From: Yinghuangia soli | GTDB taxonomy: Bacteria > Actinomycetota > Actinomycetes > Streptomycetales > Streptomycetaceae | Assembly: GCF_021502675.1 (NCBI RefSeq) | Contig: NZ_JAKFHA010000002.1 | Location: forward strand, 235,670 to 299,669 | Reading direction: 5' to 3' | DNA length: 64,000 bases | Shown here: piece after piece, positions 2,664-12,535 of the stretch | Numbering within the stretch: position 1 is the first letter of the stretch | Layout: the number at the start of each line of letters is the position of its first letter | Position numbers and translations under genes: made by a program | The notes under the pieces: model-generated | The model's input: the letters and a program-made list of their open reading frames with translations, nothing else | What the model was told of the DNA's origin: nothing | The model's database searches: none

Positions 2664-2767
2664 ACAGCAACCAGTACAGCGCCGCCTGATGTGCAACGCG
2701 GCCCCGGCTCTCGCCTGGCAGCTACCGCCGGGGCCGCTCCCCAACACTGCGATTGGAGAGCACCAGC

Positions 2768-4951
2768 ATGACGCACGTCGAACCGTTCAACCCCGACGGC
2801 GACCCGGAACACGGGGCCGACGTCATCCCCTTGCACAAGCTCAAGCCGCCGGTCTCGGACGTTGACCCGATGCCCGACATGGCGCCGACGGAGGACGCGT
2901 ACGAGGTCCCCGTACCGGTCGACGCGCCGGCCCCCGCGCGGCTGTCGTGGCGGGAGTCGGTACGCGGCGAGAAGCGACAGCCGATCCTTCCCGCGTGGCT
3001 GCTCTCCCGCGACGCGCTCAAGGAACAGGTCCGATGGGTCTGGGACCACTACACGCACGTGTTCGCGTTCCACGCGGTGCGTGTGCCCGTCTACGCCGGG
3101 ACCCTCGCGCTCCGTTCGCCGCAGGGCGCGGGACGGCTCATCGGGGGCGCGTTCCGATGGGTGACCGACGCCGACGGACGGCCCGTCCGCGCGAACGCCA
3201 TTCAGCGCGCCGACGCCGCCGAGTACCTGAAGCTCGCCAAGCACCGCGACGGCCGCATCCGGCTCCGGGCCACGATCCTCATCGCGGCCACGCTCGCCGT
3301 CAGCATCCTGATGACCGCGCTGATCCTCGCGGGCCCGACCTGGGGCGCGGTGCTCGCGTTCGCTGGCATCATCGGCGGGCTCGGGTTCCTCGGAGCGCCG
3401 AATGACCGGCCTGTGGTCGGTCCGGCAGTGGTCAAGCCGCAGGTCCAGAAGCTCAGTTCGCACATCGTGCTGCGTGCGCTCGGCGCGCTCGGCATCGCGG
3501 GGATCAACCAGGCGATGACGAAAGGGTGGGGGCCGCGGGCGTTCGTCGCCCCGATCACCCGAGACGGCCCCGGGTGGCGCGCGGACGTCGATCTCCCGTA
3601 CGGCGTGACGGCGGTCGACATCATGGAGCGACGGGACCGGCTCGCGTCGGGCCTGCGCCGGCCGATGGGGTGCGTGTGGCCCGAGCCGGTCCACGACGAG
3701 CACACGGGGCGACTCGTGTTGTGGGTCGGCGACCAGGACATGAACCAGGTCACCCCGCCCGCATGGCCGCTCGCACGGTCCGGTGCAGCGTCGCTGTTCA
3801 AGCCGTTGCCGTACGGCACTGACCAGCGCGGACGTCAGATCTTGGTCAACCTGATGTACGCGAACATGCTGATCGGCGCCATGCCCGGCATGGGCAAGAC
3901 GTTCGCGCTCCGCATCCTGCTGCTCGCCGCCGCGCTCGACGTGACGGCCGAGTTGCTGGTGTGGGAGCTGAAGGGCACCGGCGACCTGTCGCCGTTTGAG
4001 AAGGTCGCCGCGGACTACGGGTCCGGCCCCGATGACGAGACGTGCGAAGCGGCGTTGCGTTCGCTGCGGTACGTCTACAAGGATCTGGAGCGCCGCGCGA
4101 AGGTCATCGCCGGTCTGCCCAAGAACGTGTGTCCGGAGAACAAGGTCACGCCGGAACTCGCCGCGAAGAAGTCCCTGCGGCTGCACCCGCTCGTGCTGGC
4201 GATCGACGAGTGCCAAGAGCTTTTCGCACACGAGAAGTTCGGCAAGGAAGCCGAAAGCCTCGCGGTCGCCGTCATCAAGCGGGGTCGTGCGCTCGGCGTC
4301 ATCCTCGTGCTCGCCACGCAGCGTCCCGACAAGGAGTCGCTGCCCACGGGCGTCTCGGCGAACGTCGGCATCCGGTTCTGCCTGAAGGTCATGGGGCAGT
4401 TGGAGAACGACATGATCCTGGGGACGTCGTCGTACAAGAACGGCTTGCGGGCAACGACGTTCACGCTCAAGGACAAGGGCATCGGCTACCTCGTCGGTGC
4501 CGCGCCGGATGCGCAGATCACCCGCACGTACGCGGTCGACAACGACGCGGCGGACAAGATTTGCGACCGCGCCCGAGCCGCCCGGGAAGCCGCCGGCACC
4601 CTGACCGGCTACGCCGCAGGGCAGACCACCGACACCGACCGCGGCCTGTCGTACGACCTGCTCGCCGATGTCCTCGCCGTGATCCCGCCGTCCGAGCCGA
4701 AGGTGTGGAACGAGGTTGTCGTTGACCGGCTCGCCGAGCTGCGGCCGGACGGCTACGGCACTTGGGCCGCCCTCGACGTCAAGGCGAAGTCCGCGCAACT
4801 GACCACCGCGCTCAAGCCGTACGGCGTGCCGGTCGGTCAGGTCTGGGGCACCGACGACGCGACTGGCAAGGGTGCGAACCGGCGCGGCATCACCCGCGAC
4901 GACGTGACCGCTTCCATCACCAAGCGTGAAGGTTCCCGCGGCTCGGACTGA
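2768..4951 (+). CDS. FtsK/SpoIIIE-type conjugal DNA translocase (TraB/TraSA-like)
   Basis: Hexameric motor expected to move double-stranded DNA between hyphae during Streptomyces-type conjugation, which needs no relaxase. The 727-residue protein has a basic, proline-rich N-terminus, two hydrophobic segments near residues 169-209, a Walker A GAMPGMGKT at 370-378, and a Walker B LVLAIDE at 475-481 followed by the FtsK-like ATQRP turn. The C-terminal 100 residues resemble a small DNA-binding domain. The ATG at 2768 is chosen over an in-frame TTG at 2753 because GGAGAG at 2755-2760 is correctly spaced for it. First gene of the AICE transfer module; an 18-bp inverted repeat follows 7 bases after the stop. 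Confidence 0.9.
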   Translation: MTHVEPFNPDGDPEHGADVIPLHKLKPPVSDVDPMPDMAPTEDAYEVPVPVDAPAPARLSWRESVRGEKRQPILPAWLLSRDALKEQVRWVWDHYTHVFAFHAVRVPVYAGTLALRSPQGAGRLIGGAFRWVTDADGRPVRANAIQRADAAEYLKLAKHRDGRIRLRATILIAATLAVSILMTALILAGPTWGAVLAFAGIIGGLGFLGAPNDRPVVGPAVVKPQVQKLSSHIVLRALGALGIAGINQAMTKGWGPRAFVAPITRDGPGWRADVDLPYGVTAVDIMERRDRLASGLRRPMGCVWPEPVHDEHTGRLVLWVGDQDMNQVTPPAWPLARSGAASLFKPLPYGTDQRGRQILVNLMYANMLIGAMPGMGKTFALRILLLAAALDVTAELLVWELKGTGDLSPFEKVAADYGSGPDDETCEAALRSLRYVYKDLERRAKVIAGLPKNVCPENKVTPELAAKKSLRLHPLVLAIDECQELFAHEKFGKEAESLAVAVIKRGRALGVILVLATQRPDKESLPTGVSANVGIRFCLKVMGQLENDMILGTSSYKNGLRATTFTLKDKGIGYLVGAAPDAQITRTYAVDNDAADKICDRARAAREAAGTLTGYAAGQTTDTDRGLSYDLLADVLAVIPPSEPKVWNEVVVDRLAELRPDGYGTWAALDVKAKSAQLTTALKPYGVPVGQVWGTDDATGKGANRRGITRDDVTASITKREGSRGSD

Positions 4952-5092: not shown

Positions 5093-5374
5093 ATGACCCC
5101 CAACACGCTCGCGTTGCTGCTCATCCTCGGTGCCATCGGTGGTTACGCACTGTTGTGCTGGATCTCGCCGTTCGGCCCCTGCCGCGCCTGCGACGGCACC
5201 GGCAACCACACCCCCTGGGCCGAGCGCCGCGCGCTGCGCAACGGCACCCCGATCAAGCGTCGCCCGCGCATACGCAAGCCCTGCCGCCGCTGCAAGGGCA
5301 CCGGCGCCCGGCTCCGCATAGGTCGCCGCATCCACAACGCCGGACGCCGTCTGCACCACGACGGCACCCGCTGA
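5093..5374 (+). CDS. Small membrane protein with two CxxCxGxG zinc motifs
   Basis: A 93-residue protein with one N-terminal membrane helix (LALLLILGAIGGYALLCW) followed by a basic tail. The tail carries two DnaJ-type zinc-ribbon knuckles, CRACDGTG and CRRCKGTG. The ATG at 5093 has GGGAGG at 5082-5087; an in-frame GTG at 5021 would put the start inside the inverted-repeat cluster. Similar small proteins accompany tra genes in AICEs, sometimes as spread (Spd) functions, but I cannot assign one. Function unknown. Confidence 0.7.
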   Translation: MTPNTLALLLILGAIGGYALLCWISPFGPCRACDGTGNHTPWAERRALRNGTPIKRRPRIRKPCRRCKGTGARLRIGRRIHNAGRRLHHDGTR

Positions 5375-5419
5375 CCACCCACCCGCGCACCATCCCTGAC
5401 GCAACCTCAGGAGGCTGCC

Positions 5420-5689
5420 ATGGGAACCGACTTCCTCACCCTCACCGCCAGCGAGCCGCCGCCCGCCGGAACCCCCGGCGGAGGCACGGTCACCCTCGCC
5501 ATGCCGGTCATCTGCATCGTCCTCGCGACACTGCTGCTCGCGAACGGCAAGGCCCCGAAGCTCGCCGGGTTCTTCCTGTTCCTCGCGGGCGTCGGACTGT
5601 CCGGCACCGCCATCGCCGGATCGCTGTCGACATCCACGCACACGCTGTTCACCAGCGTGGTGGACGGCCTGACCGACGCCATCGCCTGA
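5420..5689 (+). CDS. Small two-helix membrane protein, possible Spd-type spread protein
   Basis: An 89-residue hydrophobic protein with membrane segments near residues 25-41 and 47-66. It starts at ATG 5420, preceded by AGGAGG. Its position between the DNA translocase and the single-strand binding protein, on the same strand, places it in the transfer module. In pSAM2-like elements small membrane proteins here help spread the element along mycelium. The assignment rests on context and topology only. Confidence 0.65.
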   Translation: MGTDFLTLTASEPPPAGTPGGGTVTLAMPVICIVLATLLLANGKAPKLAGFFLFLAGVGLSGTAIAGSLSTSTHTLFTSVVDGLTDAIA

Positions 5690-5786
5690 CATGCCGGACG
5701 CCCGCCGTGGCACCGGACACGGGGACGTGTCCGGGGTCGCGGGGGACGGCCGGACGGTCCGGTCTCCCGCTCGGGAGGCACAGCAC

Positions 5787-6038
5787 ATGCGCATCCGACG
5801 CTGGTTCATCTACCGCGACGCCGGCGCGCTGCACATCGAACGCGGCGCCGACCCGAACTGCCCCGACTGCGACGGCCGGGGCATGTGGTGGACGAACGGC
5901 GCCACCGAACACGACGACCCCGACGACGTCCTGTGCGCCTGCGTGTTCGGCCCGCACGTCCGTGTCCGCTACCGCCCGCGGGCGTGGGCCAAGCAGGCCC
6001 CGACCAACGACCCGTGGTCCAACGAACCGCCGTTCTAA
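5787..6038 (+). CDS. Small Cys-rich protein with an SSB-like C-terminal tail
   Basis: An 83-residue protein starting at ATG 5787 after GGGAGG; an in-frame ATG at 5691 overlapping the previous stop lacks a good ribosome site. A CPDCDGRG knuckle and a later CAC cysteine pair suggest metal binding. The last residues read DPWSNEPPF. Bacterial single-strand binding proteins end in an acidic peptide finishing in PF, which docks replication and repair proteins. The SSB encoded immediately downstream ends NNEVPF and shares the DPW spacing. I infer that the small protein may mimic or compete with the SSB tail. Function untested. Confidence 0.65.
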   Translation: MRIRRWFIYRDAGALHIERGADPNCPDCDGRGMWWTNGATEHDDPDDVLCACVFGPHVRVRYRPRAWAKQAPTNDPWSNEPPF

Positions 6039-6072
6039 CCCCCTGCACTTCCCTTGTGAGAGGAGCACGGCC

Positions 6073-6537
6073 GTGGCCAACAACGCCACCCACATCACCG
6101 TCATCGGGAACCTGACGCGCGACCCGGAGGGCCGCGTCACCGCATCCGGTGTGTTCGTCACCCGCGTCTCGATCGCGGTCACCCCGCGCCGCTTCGACAA
6201 GCAGTCGGGCCAGTGGGTCGACGGCGAGACGACGTTCTGGGACGCCACCGCGTGGCGCTCGCTCGGCGAGCACGTCGTGGAATCCCTGTTCAAGGGCGAC
6301 CGCGTCATTGCGACCGGCACCGTCACCACGCACCGATGGCAGGACGCCGAGACCAACGAGCCGCGCTCGCGCGTCGTGCTCGACCTGGACGACATCGGCC
6401 CGTCCCTGACCTGGGCCACCGCGAAGCTCGACAAGGCCAACCGCTCCCGCGGCAACGCGTCCACCAACGGCGCGACCGCCCCCGGCGACCCGTGGGCCAC
6501 CAATGGTCCGACCGCGAACAACGAAGTCCCGTTCTAG
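6073..6537 (+). CDS. ssb: Single-stranded DNA-binding protein of the AICE
   Basis: Coats single-stranded DNA during replication or transfer of the element. The 154-residue protein has the OB-fold SSB pattern: ITVIGNLTRDPE at the start, the VSIAVTPRR strand, TFWDATAWRSLGEHV, and GDRVIATGTV. A Ser/Asn/Thr-rich linker leads to the C-terminal tip NNEVPF. The GTG start at 6073 is preceded by GAGAGGAG. It is distinct from the chromosomal ssb expected beside rpsF. A GC-rich dyad 8 bases after the stop probably terminates the transcript. Confidence 0.9.
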   Translation: MANNATHITVIGNLTRDPEGRVTASGVFVTRVSIAVTPRRFDKQSGQWVDGETTFWDATAWRSLGEHVVESLFKGDRVIATGTVTTHRWQDAETNEPRSRVVLDLDDIGPSLTWATAKLDKANRSRGNASTNGATAPGDPWATNGPTANNEVPF

Positions 6538-7326: not shown

Positions 7327-8343
7327 ATGACTCCCGCACCGAATACCCGCGTCTGTTCGCGTTGGTCAGCCACTCCGTGCCCGGAGACGGAGGGCCTGCG
7401 CCGGTACACCAACGGCTACTTCTGCCCCGCACACGCCCCCGGCACCGTCGCGCCGCCGCTCCCGGTGCCGGACGCGAATCGGCTCAAGGCCGCCGCTCTC
7501 GCATACGCGGCGCGCGGGTGGCACGTCTTCCCGATCACGCCGGGAGGCCGGGTGTCCGCGGTCACGGACTGGCCGAACCGGGCCACCGCGACGGACACCG
7601 CGCGTATCGCGCGTTGTTGGGAGCACCGCCCGTACAACATCGGTATCGCGTGCGGGCCGTCCGGTCTGGTCGTGGTGGACCTGGACATGCCCAAGAGCGA
7701 GGACGACAAGCCGAAGGATGAGTGGGCGGGCGAGCAGGTGAGCTGCGGCGCGGATGTGCTCGCGGTCCTCGCCCAACGCGCCGGCGAGCCGTACCCGGAC
7801 CACACATTCACCGTCACCACGCAAGCAGGCGGGACGCACCTGTACTTCGCCGCTCCGGATGGCGTGGCGTTGCCGAGCACGTCGGGCAAGCACGGGTGGA
7901 AGCTCGACACCCGCGCCAACGGCGGGTACGTCATTGCAGCGGGAAGCGTCCGCAACAACCGCCCCTACACCGTCACTCGGGATGTGCCTGTGGCGCCGTT
8001 GCCGGACTGGCTGCTCGCCGCCCTGCGGCCCGCCACGGTGGCACGGCGACGGGTGCCGACACCGGTTCTGCGGGACACGAGTAGGTACGCCACCGTCGCA
8101 TTCGAGAACGAGTGCGCCAACGTCGAGAACGCCCCCGACGGGACACGCGGTGTCACGCTGCTGCGGGCCGCGCGGGCGCTCGGCCGGTTCGTCGCGTCCG
8201 GCGACCTGCCGCGCGCGATGGTGGAGGACGCTCTTAGGGAAAAAGGGGCCGCGGCCGGAATGGAGGATGCCCGCAGCGTCCCCATCATCCGGAGCGCACT
8301 GAACTGGTCCATCGCCAACAACCAGCGTCGGGGGGCGGCATGA
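7327..8343 (+). CDS. Bifunctional DNA primase/polymerase (RepPP-type AICE replication protein)
   Basis: Makes primers, and possibly extends DNA, for replication of the excised element. The 338-residue protein has an N-terminal Cys/His cluster (C10, C18, C33, H36) that may bind zinc. The prim-pol domain follows: WHVFPITPGG at 65-74, the catalytic acidic pair in VVVDLD (D118, D120) and GGTHLYF with His171. The C-terminal helical segment resembles primase C-terminal modules. Its stop overlaps the start of the DUF3987 gene by four bases (ATGA), so the two are translationally coupled. It corresponds to the RepPP class of AICE replication initiators rather than RepSA or RepAM. Confidence 0.88.
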   Translation: MTPAPNTRVCSRWSATPCPETEGLRRYTNGYFCPAHAPGTVAPPLPVPDANRLKAAALAYAARGWHVFPITPGGRVSAVTDWPNRATATDTARIARCWEHRPYNIGIACGPSGLVVVDLDMPKSEDDKPKDEWAGEQVSCGADVLAVLAQRAGEPYPDHTFTVTTQAGGTHLYFAAPDGVALPSTSGKHGWKLDTRANGGYVIAAGSVRNNRPYTVTRDVPVAPLPDWLLAALRPATVARRRVPTPVLRDTSRYATVAFENECANVENAPDGTRGVTLLRAARALGRFVASGDLPRAMVEDALREKGAAAGMEDARSVPIIRSALNWSIANNQRRGAA

Positions 8344-9968
8344 CCAGCCCCACGCCCTTTTTCCCTAACAGCAGCCCTTCCCCCGACCACCGCGCACCGA
8401 CCGGTGCCGACGCCCCGATGCCGCACGATGGCGCGGTGTTCGACCGTGCCTTTGACGGGTTCCCCCCGGACGACCTGCTCGCCGCGTTCGACCCGCCCCC
8501 GGTATGGGACGAGCCGGTACCGCTCGGCGCGGTCCGGATGCTGCCCGAGTTCCCGGTGGACGCGCTGCCCGGATGGGTCGCGGACATGGTCGCCGCGGTC
8601 GCCGAGGAAACCCAGACGCCCGCGGACCTTGCCGGGTGCACCGCGCTCGCCGCGTTGTCGACGGCGGCCGGGGGCCGTGCGGTGGTCGACGTGCGCGGTG
8701 GGTGGCGGGAGCCGGTCAACCTGTATGTCGCGGTGGCGTTGCCGCCGGCGAACCGCAAGTCTGCGGTGTTCGCCCGCATGACCGGGCCGCTCCTCAAGGC
8801 CGAGCAAGTCATGGACGAGAACGCCATCGGCGCCATCGTGGAAGCCGAGACCACCGCAAGGCTCGCCAAAGCCGCCGCAGAACGCGCCGCACAGAAAGCG
8901 GCCGGCGCCGACGGCGGCAAGCGCGACGAACTCACCGCGGAAGCAGTCGCGTTGGCGCAGGCCGCCGAGAGCATCGCGGTTCCGGCGCGTCCACAACTGG
9001 TGGCCGACGACGCCACACCGGAGGCGGTCACCTCGCTGCTCGCCGAGCAACGCGGGCGCCTGGCGGTGCTGTCCGCGGAAGGCGGCATCTTCGACATCAT
9101 CGCCGGCCGCTACTCCGGAACACCGAACATGGAAGTGTTCCTGAAAGGCCACGCGGGCGACCTGTTGAAAGTCAACCGTCAGGGCCGACGCGAGTACATC
9201 GAACACCCCGCGCTCACCATGGGACTCGCGGTGCAGCCCGCGGTGCTCGAAGACATCGCGAGGGTCAAGGGATTCGAGGGACGGGGCCTGCTCGCCCGGT
9301 TCCTGTACTCGCTCCCGGTGTCCCTGGTCGGGCGACGGAAGATCCTGACAGACCCAGTACCCGAGCAGGTCGCCGACACCTACGCCCAACGTCTGGGGGC
9401 ACTGGTGTTGGCGCTCGCCGACTGGACCGACCCCGCCGTGCTGCCGCTCACACCGGACGCCAATGCGGCTCTTGTGGAGCGGCAGGAACACACCGAACGG
9501 CGGCTCGCCGACGGCGGTCTGCTCGCGCACGTGCGCAACTGGGGCGGCAAGGTCGACGGCGCATCGGTCCGGATCGCCGGACTGCTGCACCTTGCCGCGC
9601 ACGAGCAGGCGTGGACGCGGCCGATCGACGCGGACACCGTCCGCGCGGCCGGACGCATCGGGGACTACTTCACCCACCACGCACTCGCCGTGTTCGACCT
9701 GATGGGCGCCGACCCCGCACGCGACCGCGCCCGTTCGGTCCTGGACCACCTGCGACACCGCAAAGCCACGGTGGTCAGCAAGCGGGACCTGTTCACCGGA
9801 CTGTCCCGCGCCGAGTTCCCCACTACGGCGGATCTCGATCCGGCGCTTGCCCTGCTCGAAGACCACGGATGGATCCGCGCCGAACCGGGCCCCGAACGCC
9901 GGGGCCGCGGACGGCCGCCGTCGCCGCGATACGAGACGCACCCCTCCCTGCACACGCCCGGGGCCTGA
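8340..9968 (+). CDS. DUF3987/YfjI-family replication helicase-like protein
   Basis: A 542-residue protein of the DUF3987 type that often follows or is fused to prim-pol domains in mobile elements; probably a P-loop ATPase helping to open DNA. A degenerate Walker A is visible as LPPANRKS at 134-141. The domain then shows a long charged helix, a SAEGGIFDIIAGRYSG segment and a GKVDGASVRIAGLLHLAA helix, both typical of the family. The C-terminal 80 residues look like a winged helix ending in a basic tail. Start codon overlaps the prim-pol stop. The repeat array at 9978-10232 begins 10 bases after the stop. Confidence 0.8.
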   Translation: MTSPTPFFPNSSPSPDHRAPTGADAPMPHDGAVFDRAFDGFPPDDLLAAFDPPPVWDEPVPLGAVRMLPEFPVDALPGWVADMVAAVAEETQTPADLAGCTALAALSTAAGGRAVVDVRGGWREPVNLYVAVALPPANRKSAVFARMTGPLLKAEQVMDENAIGAIVEAETTARLAKAAAERAAQKAAGADGGKRDELTAEAVALAQAAESIAVPARPQLVADDATPEAVTSLLAEQRGRLAVLSAEGGIFDIIAGRYSGTPNMEVFLKGHAGDLLKVNRQGRREYIEHPALTMGLAVQPAVLEDIARVKGFEGRGLLARFLYSLPVSLVGRRKILTDPVPEQVADTYAQRLGALVLALADWTDPAVLPLTPDANAALVERQEHTERRLADGGLLAHVRNWGGKVDGASVRIAGLLHLAAHEQAWTRPIDADTVRAAGRIGDYFTHHALAVFDLMGADPARDRARSVLDHLRHRKATVVSKRDLFTGLSRAEFPTTADLDPALALLEDHGWIRAEPGPERRGRGRPPSPRYETHPSLHTPGA

Positions 9969-9977
9969 CGACCCCTG

Positions 9978-10232
9978 CCGCAGAAACCGCACAATCCGCA
10001 GAACTGCCTGCGTACGCGGTCTGACCTGCGGCGATACCCGACCGGCCGCCGTTCCGCAGAACTCCCCCTTATTCCGCAGAAATACGCGAGAGCGGCACGG
10101 CGGCCGGTCGGCACCACACGCGCAGCTATTTCTGCGGAATAAGGCCCTGTTTCTGCGGAAGCCACCGCCCACCGCATCACCGCAGGTCACAGCCCTGATC
10201 CCGGGTTTCTGCGGATTCTGCGGTTTCTGCGG
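9978..10232. repeat. Nine-copy TTCTGCGG repeat array with interleaved inverted repeats (candidate AICE replication origin)
   Basis: The octamer occurs as CCGCAGAA at 9978, 9996, 10054 and 10074, and as TTCTGCGG at 10130, 10151, 10207, 10216 and 10225. The last three form a tandem with exact 9-bp period. Two long perfect inverted repeats are interleaved: 10038-10051 with 10098-10111 (14 bp) and 10067-10084 with 10127-10144 (18 bp), each pair offset by 60 bp. The interval 9969-10284 has no convincing gene. Iteron-like arrays next to replication genes usually mark origins, so this is the best candidate origin. It could also regulate xis-int. Confidence 0.75.
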
Positions 10233-10284
10233 CGCCCCGAGCCGCCATCACTCACGCCAGCTTGCCTCAGGAAGGAGCGGGACC

Positions 10285-10497
10285 GTGCCCGACCGGTTCC
10301 TGTCGGTTCCCGAAGTTGCCGAGCGCATGGGGTTCGACAACGAGCGCTTCGTCCGGCGCCTCGTGGCCGAACGCCGCATCCAGTACGTCAAGTTCGGATC
10401 CCATGTCCGCATCAAGGAGAGCGTGGTCATCGCCTACATCGACGCGAACACAGTGCAGCCGCTCCGTCCGCGCCGCCGTACCTGGAGGGCTGCATAG
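10285..10497 (+). CDS. xis: Excisionase / MerR-like helix-turn-helix DNA-binding protein
   Basis: Small DNA-binding protein expected to direct the integrase towards excision. The 70 residues carry the classic excisionase winged helix: FLSVPEVAERMG, then a second helix RFVRRLVAERRI and the wing YVKFGSHVRIKES. GTG at 10285 is preceded by GGAAGGAG. Its TAG stop shares one base with the GTG of the integrase gene, the tight xis-int coupling typical of AICEs and phages. Confidence 0.85.
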   Translation: MPDRFLSVPEVAERMGFDNERFVRRLVAERRIQYVKFGSHVRIKESVVIAYIDANTVQPLRPRRRTWRAA

Positions 10498-11696
10498 TGG
10501 CAAAGAAGCGTGGCCCCAAGAAGGGCAAGCCCATGCGCCGGTTCGGCGCCGTGCGGCAGTACCGGTCCGGTCGTTGGACCGCGTCCTACCTCGACCCGAC
10601 CGGCGCGCGCCAACGGTCACCCGAGACGTTCGCGACCCGAGAGGATGCCGAGGTCTGGCTGTCCCAGGTCGAAGCGGACATCACGCGCAAGGACTGGCGC
10701 GACCCGGACGCCGGCGCCGTCAACTTCGAGGAGTACGCGCGCAAGTGGGTTGCCGAGCGTGGCGTGGCTCCCACCACAGAAGAGCTGTACGAGCGCCTGC
10801 TTCGCCTGCACATCCTGCCCACGTTCGGCGAGTCGGACGTGGACGAGATCACCCCGCCCAAGGTCCGCGCGTGGCGAGCCGAACGCCTCAAGACGACGGG
10901 GGCCGGCAGCACCGTCGCGAAGTCGTACCGGCTCCTCAAAGCGATTCTGGAGACGGCGACGGACGACGAGTTGATTCGCCGGAATCCCTGCCGCATCCGG
11001 GGAGCAGGCAAGGAGACCGCCCGCGAACGCGAAATCGCGAGCGTCGCCGAAGTCGACGCCCTCGCCGACGCCGTGGGCCCGCGTTGGCGGCTCATGGTGT
11101 ACCTGGGCGCCTACGGCCCGATGCGCCCGGAGGAGCAGGCCGAACTCCGGCGCAAGGACGTGCGGCTGGAGACCATGACGATCCGGGTCCGGCAGGCGGC
11201 CCCGGAACTGAGCACCGGACGCCGAGTGGTCGGCGAGACGAAGTCCGAAGCAGGCATGCGCACCATCGTGCTTCCCGCATTCCTCCGCGATGAATTGCGC
11301 AACCATCTCGACTGGTACGCCGAGCAGGGGCGGGACGGTCTGCTGTTCGTGGGGGAGAAGGGCGCCCCGTTCCGCCGATCCTCGTTCGGTAGGAAATGGC
11401 GGAAGGCTCGCGAGAAGGTCGGGCTGCCCGAAGGGTTCGTCTTCTACGACCTGCGCCACACCGGGCACACGCTCTCGACTCGATCCGGCGCCACGCTCAA
11501 GGACACGATGGTGCGCGCCGGACAGTCCTCCGAGAAGGCCGCACTGATCTACCAGCACTCCGACCACACGCGCCAACAAGAGGTGGCGGACGGTCTCGAC
11601 AAGATGGTGCGCAAGCAGCGCAAGAAGGCCGCCAAGCAGGCCCGTAAGGAGCGCAAGAAGGGCACAGGTGGTGCGGACGTGGTGCGCGGCGCCTGA
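10497..11696 (+). CDS. int: Tyrosine integrase of the AICE
   Basis: Integrates and excises the element at the adjacent tRNA-Gly gene. The 399-residue protein has a basic AP2-like N-terminal DNA-binding part, a SAM-like core-binding domain at about 75-160 and a catalytic domain with Arg210 (GPMR), Arg320 in YDLRHT, and nucleophile Tyr352 in IYQH. The first histidine of the HxLRH box is Tyr317, and the usual GHSS histidine is a glutamine (AGQSS, 341-345). Several actinobacterial integrases show such changes. The C-terminus is Lys/Arg-rich. Its stop is 51 bases from the tRNA CCA end, separated by a strong hairpin. Confidence 0.92.
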   Translation: MAKKRGPKKGKPMRRFGAVRQYRSGRWTASYLDPTGARQRSPETFATREDAEVWLSQVEADITRKDWRDPDAGAVNFEEYARKWVAERGVAPTTEELYERLLRLHILPTFGESDVDEITPPKVRAWRAERLKTTGAGSTVAKSYRLLKAILETATDDELIRRNPCRIRGAGKETAREREIASVAEVDALADAVGPRWRLMVYLGAYGPMRPEEQAELRRKDVRLETMTIRVRQAAPELSTGRRVVGETKSEAGMRTIVLPAFLRDELRNHLDWYAEQGRDGLLFVGEKGAPFRRSSFGRKWRKAREKVGLPEGFVFYDLRHTGHTLSTRSGATLKDTMVRAGQSSEKAALIYQHSDHTRQQEVADGLDKMVRKQRKKAAKQARKERKKGTGGADVVRGA

Positions 11697-11715
11697 ATAG
11701 GTCTAGACAACGAAC

Positions 11716-11742
11716 AAGGCCCAGGTCTCTGACCTGGGCCTT
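11716..11742. terminator. Perfect bidirectional hairpin between int and tRNA-Gly
   Basis: A 12-bp perfect stem (AAGGCCCAGGTC and complement) with a three-base TCT loop. The A/T ends give short T-runs on both strands. It can end int transcription on the plus strand and the tRNA transcript on the minus strand. Confidence 0.85.
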
Positions 11743-11747
11743 AAGTC

Positions 11748-11821
11748 TGGAGCGGGCGACGAGAATCGAACTCGCGCTCTGAGCTTGGGAAGCTCATGTT
11801 CTACCATTAAACTACGCCCGC
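11748..11821 (-). tRNA. tRNA-Gly (anticodon CCC), likely AICE attachment site
   Basis: The minus strand folds as a complete cloverleaf. It has a 7-bp acceptor stem (GCGGGCG with CGCCCGC), a D-arm, an anticodon stem TGAGC/GCTCA around loop TTCCCAA giving anticodon CCC, and a T-arm with loop TTCGATT. The genome also encodes CCA at 11748-11750. It reads GGG codons. The adjoining integrase indicates that the 3' half of this gene is the integration target; the matching copy at the far end of the element was not seen in this window. Confidence 0.93.
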
Positions 11822-11947
11822 GCTGGTGGGCCCCTAGGGGTCCGCGCGTCACACTGTACCCGATCTGCCGGAGGGGATGCAGAGGGTTTCCTGGTGGGGC
11901 AGGCGTGTCGGGGTGGTGCCGTTTGGGTGTATCGCGTGGGCAGCGAC

Positions 11948-11953
11948 TACCCT
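11948..11953 (+). promoter_or_regulatory. Putative -10 box for leaderless dcd transcript
   Basis: TACCCT lies six bases before the GTG start, and no ribosome binding site is present. This is the usual arrangement for leaderless actinomycete transcripts. Confidence 0.45.
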
Positions 11954-11959
11954 CGGCGT

Positions 11960-12535
11960 GTGCTTCTTTCGGACAAGGACATTCGCGCGGAGATCGACGC
12001 CGGTCGGGTCGGGATCGACCCCTTTGAGGCGGACATGGTCCAGCCGTCCAGTGTCGATGTCCGACTTGACCGCTTTTTTCGGGTGTTCGAGAACCATCGG
12101 TACCCGCACATCGACCCCGCGATCGAACAGCCGGATCTGACCCGGCTCATCGAGCCGGAGGGGGACGAGCCGTTCATCCTGCACCCGGGCGAGTTCGTGC
12201 TGGCGTCGACGTACGAGGTCATCACGCTGCCGGACGATGTGGCGAGCCGGCTCGAGGGGAAGAGTTCGCTCGGGCGGCTGGGGCTGCTGACGCATTCGAC
12301 GGCCGGGTTCATCGACCCGGGGTTCTCGGGGCACGTGACCCTGGAGCTGTCGAATGTGGCCACCCTGCCGATCAAGTTGTGGCCGGGGATGAAGATCGGG
12401 CAGCTGTGCCTGTTCCGGTTGTCGTCGCCTTCGGAGTTCCCGTACGGGTCGTCCGTGTACGGGTCGCGCTACCAGGGCCAGCGCGGGCCCACGGCTTCGC
12501 GGTCGTTCCAGAACTTCCACCGGACGAAGATCTGA
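11960..12535 (+). CDS. dcd: dCTP deaminase
   Basis: Deaminates dCTP to dUTP, feeding dTMP synthesis. The 191-residue protein begins VLLSDKDI and contains the family signatures QPSSVDVRL, the substrate-binding [11 protein letters not shown] segment, the catalytic-region [16 protein letters not shown] and C-terminal [14 protein letters not shown]. The length fits the family. GTG 11960 is chosen because it starts exactly at the conserved N-terminus; a longer reading from 11894 adds residues unlike the family. The start appears leaderless. A phosphoribosyltransferase gene follows 48 bases downstream, also nucleotide-related. Confidence 0.95.

Follow-up and report, generated by a model that had tools for sequence, protein, structure and literature searches.

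Gene content of the locus

The window (the whole 64-kb stretch of DNA analysed) contains a repeat array lying between the replication genes and the integration genes of a putative integrated element. Upstream of the array are an FtsK/TraB-type protein, a reading frame with an SSB domain, a prim-pol, and a DUF3987 protein, and downstream of it are xis, an integrase, and tRNA-Gly(ccc). The features of this part of the window are the following.

2753..4951, plus strand: FtsK/TraB-type transfer protein (PF01580, E 1.8e-06, 28 bits against a cut-off of 24)
7327..8343, plus strand: prim-pol gene (AEP primase-polymerase), overlapping the start of the DUF3987 gene (Pfam PF09250, E 2.6e-45)
8340..9968, plus strand: DUF3987 gene, RepPP-type putative initiator-helicase (Pfam PF13148, E 8.1e-105)
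9702..9959, plus strand: codons of the predicted C-terminal winged helix of DUF3987, residues 455-540
10285..10497, plus strand: xis, excisionase-type HTH (TIGR01764, PF12728)
10497..11696, plus strand: tyrosine integrase (PF00589)
11735..11791, no strand: att repeat covering the 3' part of tRNA-Gly(ccc) (57-bp repeats with 98% and 95% identity elsewhere on contig C12)
11748-11821, minus strand: tRNA-Gly(ccc) gene

The FtsK/TraB-type protein also matches NF041214 (E 8.6e-08), far under the curated cut-off of that profile. The family profile search gave no DUF3631 (RepAM) match for the replication gene that follows prim-pol. The locus has the features by which RepPP-type AICEs are recognised, namely an integrase and xis beside an att site in a tRNA gene, prim-pol followed by a rep gene that is not RepAM, and an FtsK/SpoIIIE-type protein. 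The reading frame at 5155-6537 (460 aa) has its SSB domain in residues 313-414 only, and the long N-terminal region matches no family at the threshold applied.

The 57-bp att piece of tRNA-Gly is found in three copies on contig C12, at 212512, 225287, and 247404, the last being the copy in the tRNA gene of the window (11735-11791). From these positions we infer that the element measures about 22 kb and extends beyond the left edge of the window. Two elements probably stand in tandem at this one tRNA gene. In the left one, the profile search matched tra, xis, and int and gave no DUF3987, RepAM, or prim-pol hit. Tyrosine-recombinase reading frames are also present inside the element, at 29-1630 of the window and just to its left (contig C12, 233222-234847), and these neighbouring frames are possibly an inserted recombinase cluster.

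The repeats form a divergent dyad

The interval 9969-10284 starts one base past the DUF3987 stop codon and ends ahead of the xis start; open frames cross it, with no support for any of them as a gene. The octamer TTCTGCGG occurs 13 times in the 64-kb window, against 2.17 copies expected, and this number was reached in none of 100 shuffles. Nine of the 13 copies fall inside 9978-10232 (255 bp), with the four minus-strand copies (9978, 9996, 10054, and 10074) to the left of the five plus-strand ones (10130, 10151, 10207, 10216, and 10225). An earlier note on this DNA had described nine octamers in 255 bp, three of them in exact 9-bp tandem, located between prim-pol/DUF3987 and xis-int; the count, the tandem at 10207, 10216, and 10225, and the location all agree with that description. 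A degenerate tenth octamer, CCGCACAA at 9987, gives a symmetrical layout of five sites on the minus strand and then five on the plus strand. The successive spacings are 9 and 9 (triplet), 58, 20 (pair), 56, 21 (pair), 56, and 9 and 9 (triplet). The parts of the array are listed below.

9977..10233, no strand: whole iteron dyad, candidate oriV, with its centre at about 10105.5 (self reverse-complement match, nested arms)
9978..10003, minus strand: left outer octamer triplet (9978, 9987 degenerate CCGCACAA, 9996), 9-bp spacing
10022..10035, plus strand: second conserved element TGACCTGCGGCGAT, left copy
10038..10111, no strand: 15-bp perfect inverted repeat, off the axis and interleaved with the 18-bp one (arms 10038-10052 and 10097-10111)
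10054..10081, minus strand: left inner octamer pair (10054, 10074), 20-bp spacing
10067..10144, no strand: 18-bp perfect inverted repeat, on the axis (arms 10067-10084 and 10127-10144)
10130..10158, plus strand: right inner octamer pair (10130, 10151), 21-bp spacing
10176..10189, minus strand: second conserved element TGACCTGCGGTGAT, right inverted copy
10207..10232, plus strand: right outer octamer triplet (10207, 10216, 10225), 9-bp spacing

Aligned with its own reverse complement, the segment shows 70% identity over 257 bp (E 7.5e-19) and is thus a single imperfect dyad, with nested arms of 27 nt (96%), 14 nt (93%), 10 nt (100%), and 18 nt (100%) around position ~10105.5. This dyad had been missed in the earlier reading of the sequence, and the array is larger than first described. 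That reading had instead stressed two perfect inverted repeats, of 14 and 18 bp, with arms alternating as A-B-A'-B' and offset by 60 bp in both pairs. The 18-bp repeat and the alternation are as described, while the shorter repeat is 15 bp long and the offsets are 60 and 59 bp. The 18-bp repeat sits on the dyad axis and the 15-bp one off it. The inner octamer pairs lie in and beside the 18-bp repeat near the centre, the half-arrays face apart, and the only A/T runs of at least 4 nt within 9961-10290 are in the arms of this repeat. Folding of the segment as single-stranded DNA is far above that of shuffled sequences (z -10.1, 0/200), which is no more than expected of any dyad. An RNA element was also considered and rejected: Rfam at gathering scores gives the tRNA alone in 9500-12000.

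The array is conserved behind DUF3987 genes

We found DUF3987 matches (E <= 1e-40) in 80 of 391 sampled genomes of the order. The best matches, together with the plasmid NZ_CP107792 and the window, made up a set of 111 loci with at least 59% identity (relatives at ~59-69%). NZ_CP107792 is a circular 18.4-kb Streptomyces plasmid with the same module, in the order prim-pol, a small gene, DUF3987 ('YfjI family'), array, HTH gene, and integrase. A clear octamer class is present directly 3' of DUF3987 in 108 of the 111 loci, the plasmid included; absence of the repeat from relatives with the same rep genes, which the earlier note had named as evidence against an origin, is therefore not what we observe. 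The three loci lacking a clear class are L004 and L037, which are two copies of one locus where a run of N blocks judgement by the scan, and L042, which has two recognisable CCGCANAA copies only (and residues F-T at the protein positions discussed below). Redundancy removal at 98.5% left 92 loci. Setting aside L042, L004, and L094 (of class CCGCANAA, with a broken C-terminal frame), we analysed 89 loci, window included.

These 89 non-redundant loci fall into three octamer classes: CCGCANAA (43), NGACANAA (28), and CCACAGAA (18). The expectation that the window's octamer would recur 3' of DUF3987 in related elements holds for the array and fails for the exact octamer, whose positions 2-3 vary by lineage. 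The order of the sites (left half on the minus strand, right half on the plus strand, <<<<<>>>>>) is strict in 87 of the 89 loci, and the remaining two have one stray site. Arrays have a median of 9 copies and a median span of 256 bp. Spacings are mostly fixed (9/9, 56-58 or 67-69, and 20-21) around a centre of variable length, and the alternative values are about 11 bp apart, i.e., one helical turn. Averaged over the 89 loci, A/T content peaks at the inner pairs and the triplets. Alternating pairs of inverted repeats are found in 28 of the 89 loci, against none after shuffling, and inverted repeats are on the axis in 72 and off the axis in 53. By this comparison of sequences, what is kept is the divergent octamer dyad and not the alternating layout with mutually exclusive hairpins that the earlier note had put forward.

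In a group at 46-50% identity (L215-L225), the octamer is different in seven of 11 loci, and two (L216 and L220) have no array. The seven (L217-L219 and L221-L224) carry a fourth octamer class 3' of DUF3987, CTGCTGAC/CGTCAGCA, together with Val at residue 485. None of seven DUF3987 relatives at ~30-36% identity has an array within 350 bp.

The octamer class follows the C-terminus of DUF3987

The predicted model of the window's DUF3987 protein (mean pLDDT 80) comprises an AAA+ core and a C-terminal winged helix, the latter with helices at residues 459-474, 481-487, and 496-508 and strands at 512-514 and 530-533. Structurally, the modelled core comes closest to MCM helicases (6mii_B, Z 18.1, rmsd 3.7 over 269 residues). 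The best Foldseek E-value is 1e-4, with low whole-model TM-scores (0.2-0.4), and a sequence search of solved structures gave a best E of 0.71, to ribosomal proteins. In the model, the AAA+ core resembles MCM helicases, making DUF3987 a putative helicase. A survey of 2018 gives DUF3987 domains as predicted helicases, and predicts a role in origin recognition for the winged-helix tails of such primase-helicases (PMC5862659).

We counted the changes of octamer class on trees of different parts of the locus. The tree of the DUF3987 C-terminus has 3 changes (the minimum is 2 for three states, and 35 was the lowest value in 50 shuffles), and still 5 when columns 478-491 are removed. The tree of the ATPase core has 9 (minimum of 50 shuffles, 33), and five windows of the core as short as the C-terminus have 9 to 13. 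For the neighbouring genes we used the 77 of the 89 loci that were long enough, with 30 shuffles for each tree. This gave 20 changes for prim-pol (shuffled minimum 23, mean 27.1; 62/77 loci), 13 for xis (11 and 15.9; 42/77), 27 for int (25 and 29.7; 76/77), and 23 for tra (23 and 26.4; 68/77). Among these four neighbours, prim-pol alone is below its shuffled minimum, and all four are below the shuffled means. The Xis and Int frames lie within 1 kb of the array and yet hardly follow the class, so that nearness alone does not explain the link with DUF3987. Covariation of octamer positions 2-3 with the C-terminus is stronger evidence for an iteron-initiator relation than plain conservation.

Column 486 is the most informative of the 481 protein columns, and residues 485-486 together distinguish the three classes without exception (89/89 loci). 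Phe followed by Thr, Ala, Ser, or Asn goes with CCGCANAA (43/43), Phe-Arg with NGACANAA (28/28), and Met followed by Val, Ser, or Thr with CCACAGAA (18/18). The window has Phe-Thr at these positions (codons 9792-9797). In the model, the two residues are at the end of helix 2, outside the canonical recognition helix 3. One genome, Streptacidiphilus sp. ASG 303, holds a natural minimal pair (L035 and L038): the C-termini are near-identical, with Arg (L035) or Asn (L038) at 486 and a small number of further differences, most of them in the wing, and the arrays have homologous spacers with octamers NGACANAA in L035 and CCGCANAA in L038. Three copies in L038 read CTGCANAA, beside its CCGCANAA copies.

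The rule was fixed on the 89 loci and then applied to 38 further ones, 20 close and 18 distant. All 20 close loci were predicted correctly; eight are new sequences, 11 repeat known sequences, and one (L243) is the presumed twin of the dropped L094. Both scorable distant loci (46-48% identity) were also predicted correctly, and the rest of the 18 comprise seven with CTGCTGAC/CGTCAGCA and Val485 and nine without an array. The C-terminal codons adjoin the array and one crossover moves both, so some of the co-segregation may be hitch-hiking. Independent pairs on supported branches (2 + 4) all agree with the rule, though they are too few for significance, and the changes on the core tree are few (9). 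These results suggest that the C-terminal winged helix of DUF3987 reads the octamers and that residues 485-486 tell which version is read.

Similarity to described replication systems

Our searches of the open-licence PMC literature found no described origin of a RepPP-type AICE. The RepPP module of SLP1 resembles that of the window by its description, with the prim-pol SCO4617 followed by SCO4618 in an AICE with int, xis, and tra; the available part of that report gives no origin or repeats (PMC3218068). A similar locus is that of the Streptomyces plasmid pWTY27 (repAB and an iteron). Judging from gene names and coordinates, it has a prim-pol, a second rep gene, and 300 bp of non-coding repeats 3' of it, with 5 + 5 short repeats on opposite strands and a RepA of similar size (522 aa) (PMC3583192). 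Its 300-bp repeat region is essential for replication, 149 bp being insufficient, RepA footprints over a long inverted repeat in this region, and the authors conclude that replication is bidirectional (PMC3583192). It differs from the window in its repeat, GTGGGAAC, and in that integration is not mentioned in the available text (PMC3583192); its RepA may be a counterpart of DUF3987, to judge by size and gene order. Two RepAM (DUF3631) plasmids, NZ_CP108973 and NZ_CP108827, resemble the window in having an 8-bp repeat array of their own between rep and an HTH gene plus integrase, and differ from it in helicase family and octamer. Their arrays have eight exact copies each of CCGCTACC (L115, complement 1593-1778; L116, complement 1832-2051).

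Staphylococcal elements offer a parallel in mechanism. The CCPol-MP of SCCmec is an A-family polymerase instead of a prim-pol. SCCmec pairs a separate primase-polymerase (CCPol-MP) with an initiator-helicase, Cch2, that has a C-terminal double-strand binding domain and direct repeats downstream of its gene, an arrangement that the window probably shares; its iteron is of 5 nt, unlike that of the window, and its inverted repeats are dispensable for binding (PMC7581432). In the SaPI Rep/ori system, as described, the C-terminal domain of the helicase reads iterons directly downstream of its own gene (PMC7581432). The candidate origin in the window very probably works like SaPI Rep/ori and pWTY27.

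A candidate origin of replication

The earlier note had proposed the array as a candidate AICE origin, a proposal that gains support from its presence 3' of DUF3987 across the loci and from the covariation of octamer class and C-terminus. We think it very likely, on these comparative grounds, that the array serves as the oriV of an AICE (an integrated conjugative element of actinomycetes) with a RepPP-type replication module, DUF3987 being initiator and helicase and its winged helix binding the iterons. The case for an origin is strongly supported by sequence comparison, and initiator-helicases with downstream iterons are already known in kind.

Three other roles of the octamers have to be weighed. 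They could be operator or excision sites for Xis, Int, or another regulator of xis-int, with replication starting elsewhere. The array is indeed directly upstream of xis-int in the window, and the integrase frame starts less than 840 bp from the DUF3987 stop in 76 of 77 loci; however, the octamer class is near random on the xis and int trees despite this nearness, and the profile used found a Xis relative in 42 of the 77 loci only, which makes this role highly improbable. Recognition sequences of TraB/FtsK (clt/TRS), which would mark the element for transfer as double-stranded DNA, would also take the form of short repeats beside element genes, as in known clt loci. The TraB sites of other plasmids are octamers. 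The clt of pWTY27 itself consists of four 7-bp repeats bound by TraA (PMC3583192). Yet the class is near random on the tra tree too, the sites form two opposed halves in 87 of 89 loci, unlike a one-way guide, and where a Tra match exists (68 loci), the end of the best one is 3-7 kb upstream, so that we find a transfer function barely credible.

In the remaining alternative, DUF3987 does bind the array, but the main purpose is autorepression of its operon or copy-number control (incompatibility, handcuffing), with initiation at another site. Iteron arrays commonly serve both in initiation and in copy control or repression. Here, an array located 3' of the rep genes would not be expected to repress their promoter, and the region of pWTY27 taken as equivalent is required for replication; we regard a mainly regulatory array as very unlikely.

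If the array is an origin, as we favour, initiation may proceed as follows. The C-terminal winged helix of DUF3987 would bind the octamers as iterons, and its MCM-like AAA+ core would form the unwinding ring. The opposed half-arrays would probably bring two initiator assemblies into a head-to-head position across the 18-bp inverted repeat at the centre. The centre, with its A/T patches, would then open and unwinding would proceed both ways, the adjacent prim-pol making primers in both directions. pWTY27 lends support to this scheme as a published precedent, and SaPI Rep and SCCmec Cch2 are further ones for a helicase that reads iterons located behind its own gene. We infer the origin function of the segment, octamer binding by DUF3987, the loading of two rings, bidirectional replication, and the role of prim-pol from the sequences and their relatives.

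A bolder reading, against which we lean somewhat, is that of a compact origin code. The identity of positions 2-3 in all iterons of a fixed, divergent 5+5 array would be set by residues 485-486, which lie where helix 2 ends in the winged helix of an MCM-like initiator, and exchange or mutation of this small module would move an element to another incompatibility group. On the symmetrical array, two MCM-like rings would be loaded in head-to-head orientation and work with a primase of archaeal/eukaryotic type, amounting to a bacterial MCM-prim-pol replisome with a sequence-defined double-ring origin, and the class-independent TGACCTGCG would bind a host factor.

Of particular note in these loci are the precise geometry of the array, the two-residue specificity rule, and a putative initiator resembling MCM helicases. 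The array would define a minimal candidate oriV for a widespread class of actinomycete elements and suggests an initiator role for the DUF3987 protein. The specificity rule could be of use for predicting which elements are compatible and for designing compatible Streptomyces vectors.

A second conserved element

Between the triplet and the pair on each side of the array lies a second element in inverted orientation, TGACCTGCG...CGCAGGTCA (also written TGACCTGCGG). Both copies are present with at most one mismatch in 73 of the 89 loci and exactly in 44. Among 445 length-matched control segments taken from these loci, the corresponding numbers are 13 and 0. This TGACCTGCG element is constant across the octamer classes, and our guess is that it is a site for a host factor.

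The element also occurs outside these arrays. Behind RepAM (DUF3631) genes (L118-L147), GCAGGTCA or its complement is found within 400 bp in 24 of 30 loci, against 0.067 expected, and the profile search found no prim-pol in the fetched upstream stretch of any of the 30. We had considered TGACCTGC as a prim-pol site; it is also present behind RepAM genes without a prim-pol match, so prim-pol is not its obvious reader. The literature gave no origin-related lead for TGACCTGC. It occurs in 21 of 37 chromosomal oriC regions (L178-L214), nine of which have an inverted pair 362-374 bp apart. The oriC is conserved as a whole: 200 octamers are found in a larger number of these regions than TGACCTGC, which is also equalled by 16 of its 1680 letter permutations. 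The 14-mer TGACCTGCGGYGAT was rejected as an origin-specific mark, since it is scattered in genomes (132 of 150, against 5 of 150 for a control read backward) and just one of the 30 places inspected (L153) is inside an octamer array of this kind. At four places in several genomes (L169, L171, L175, and L177), TGACCTGCGGTGAT is found in a conserved context, preceded by ggagaccgttgtcatgtgcg, that looks like a regulatory region.
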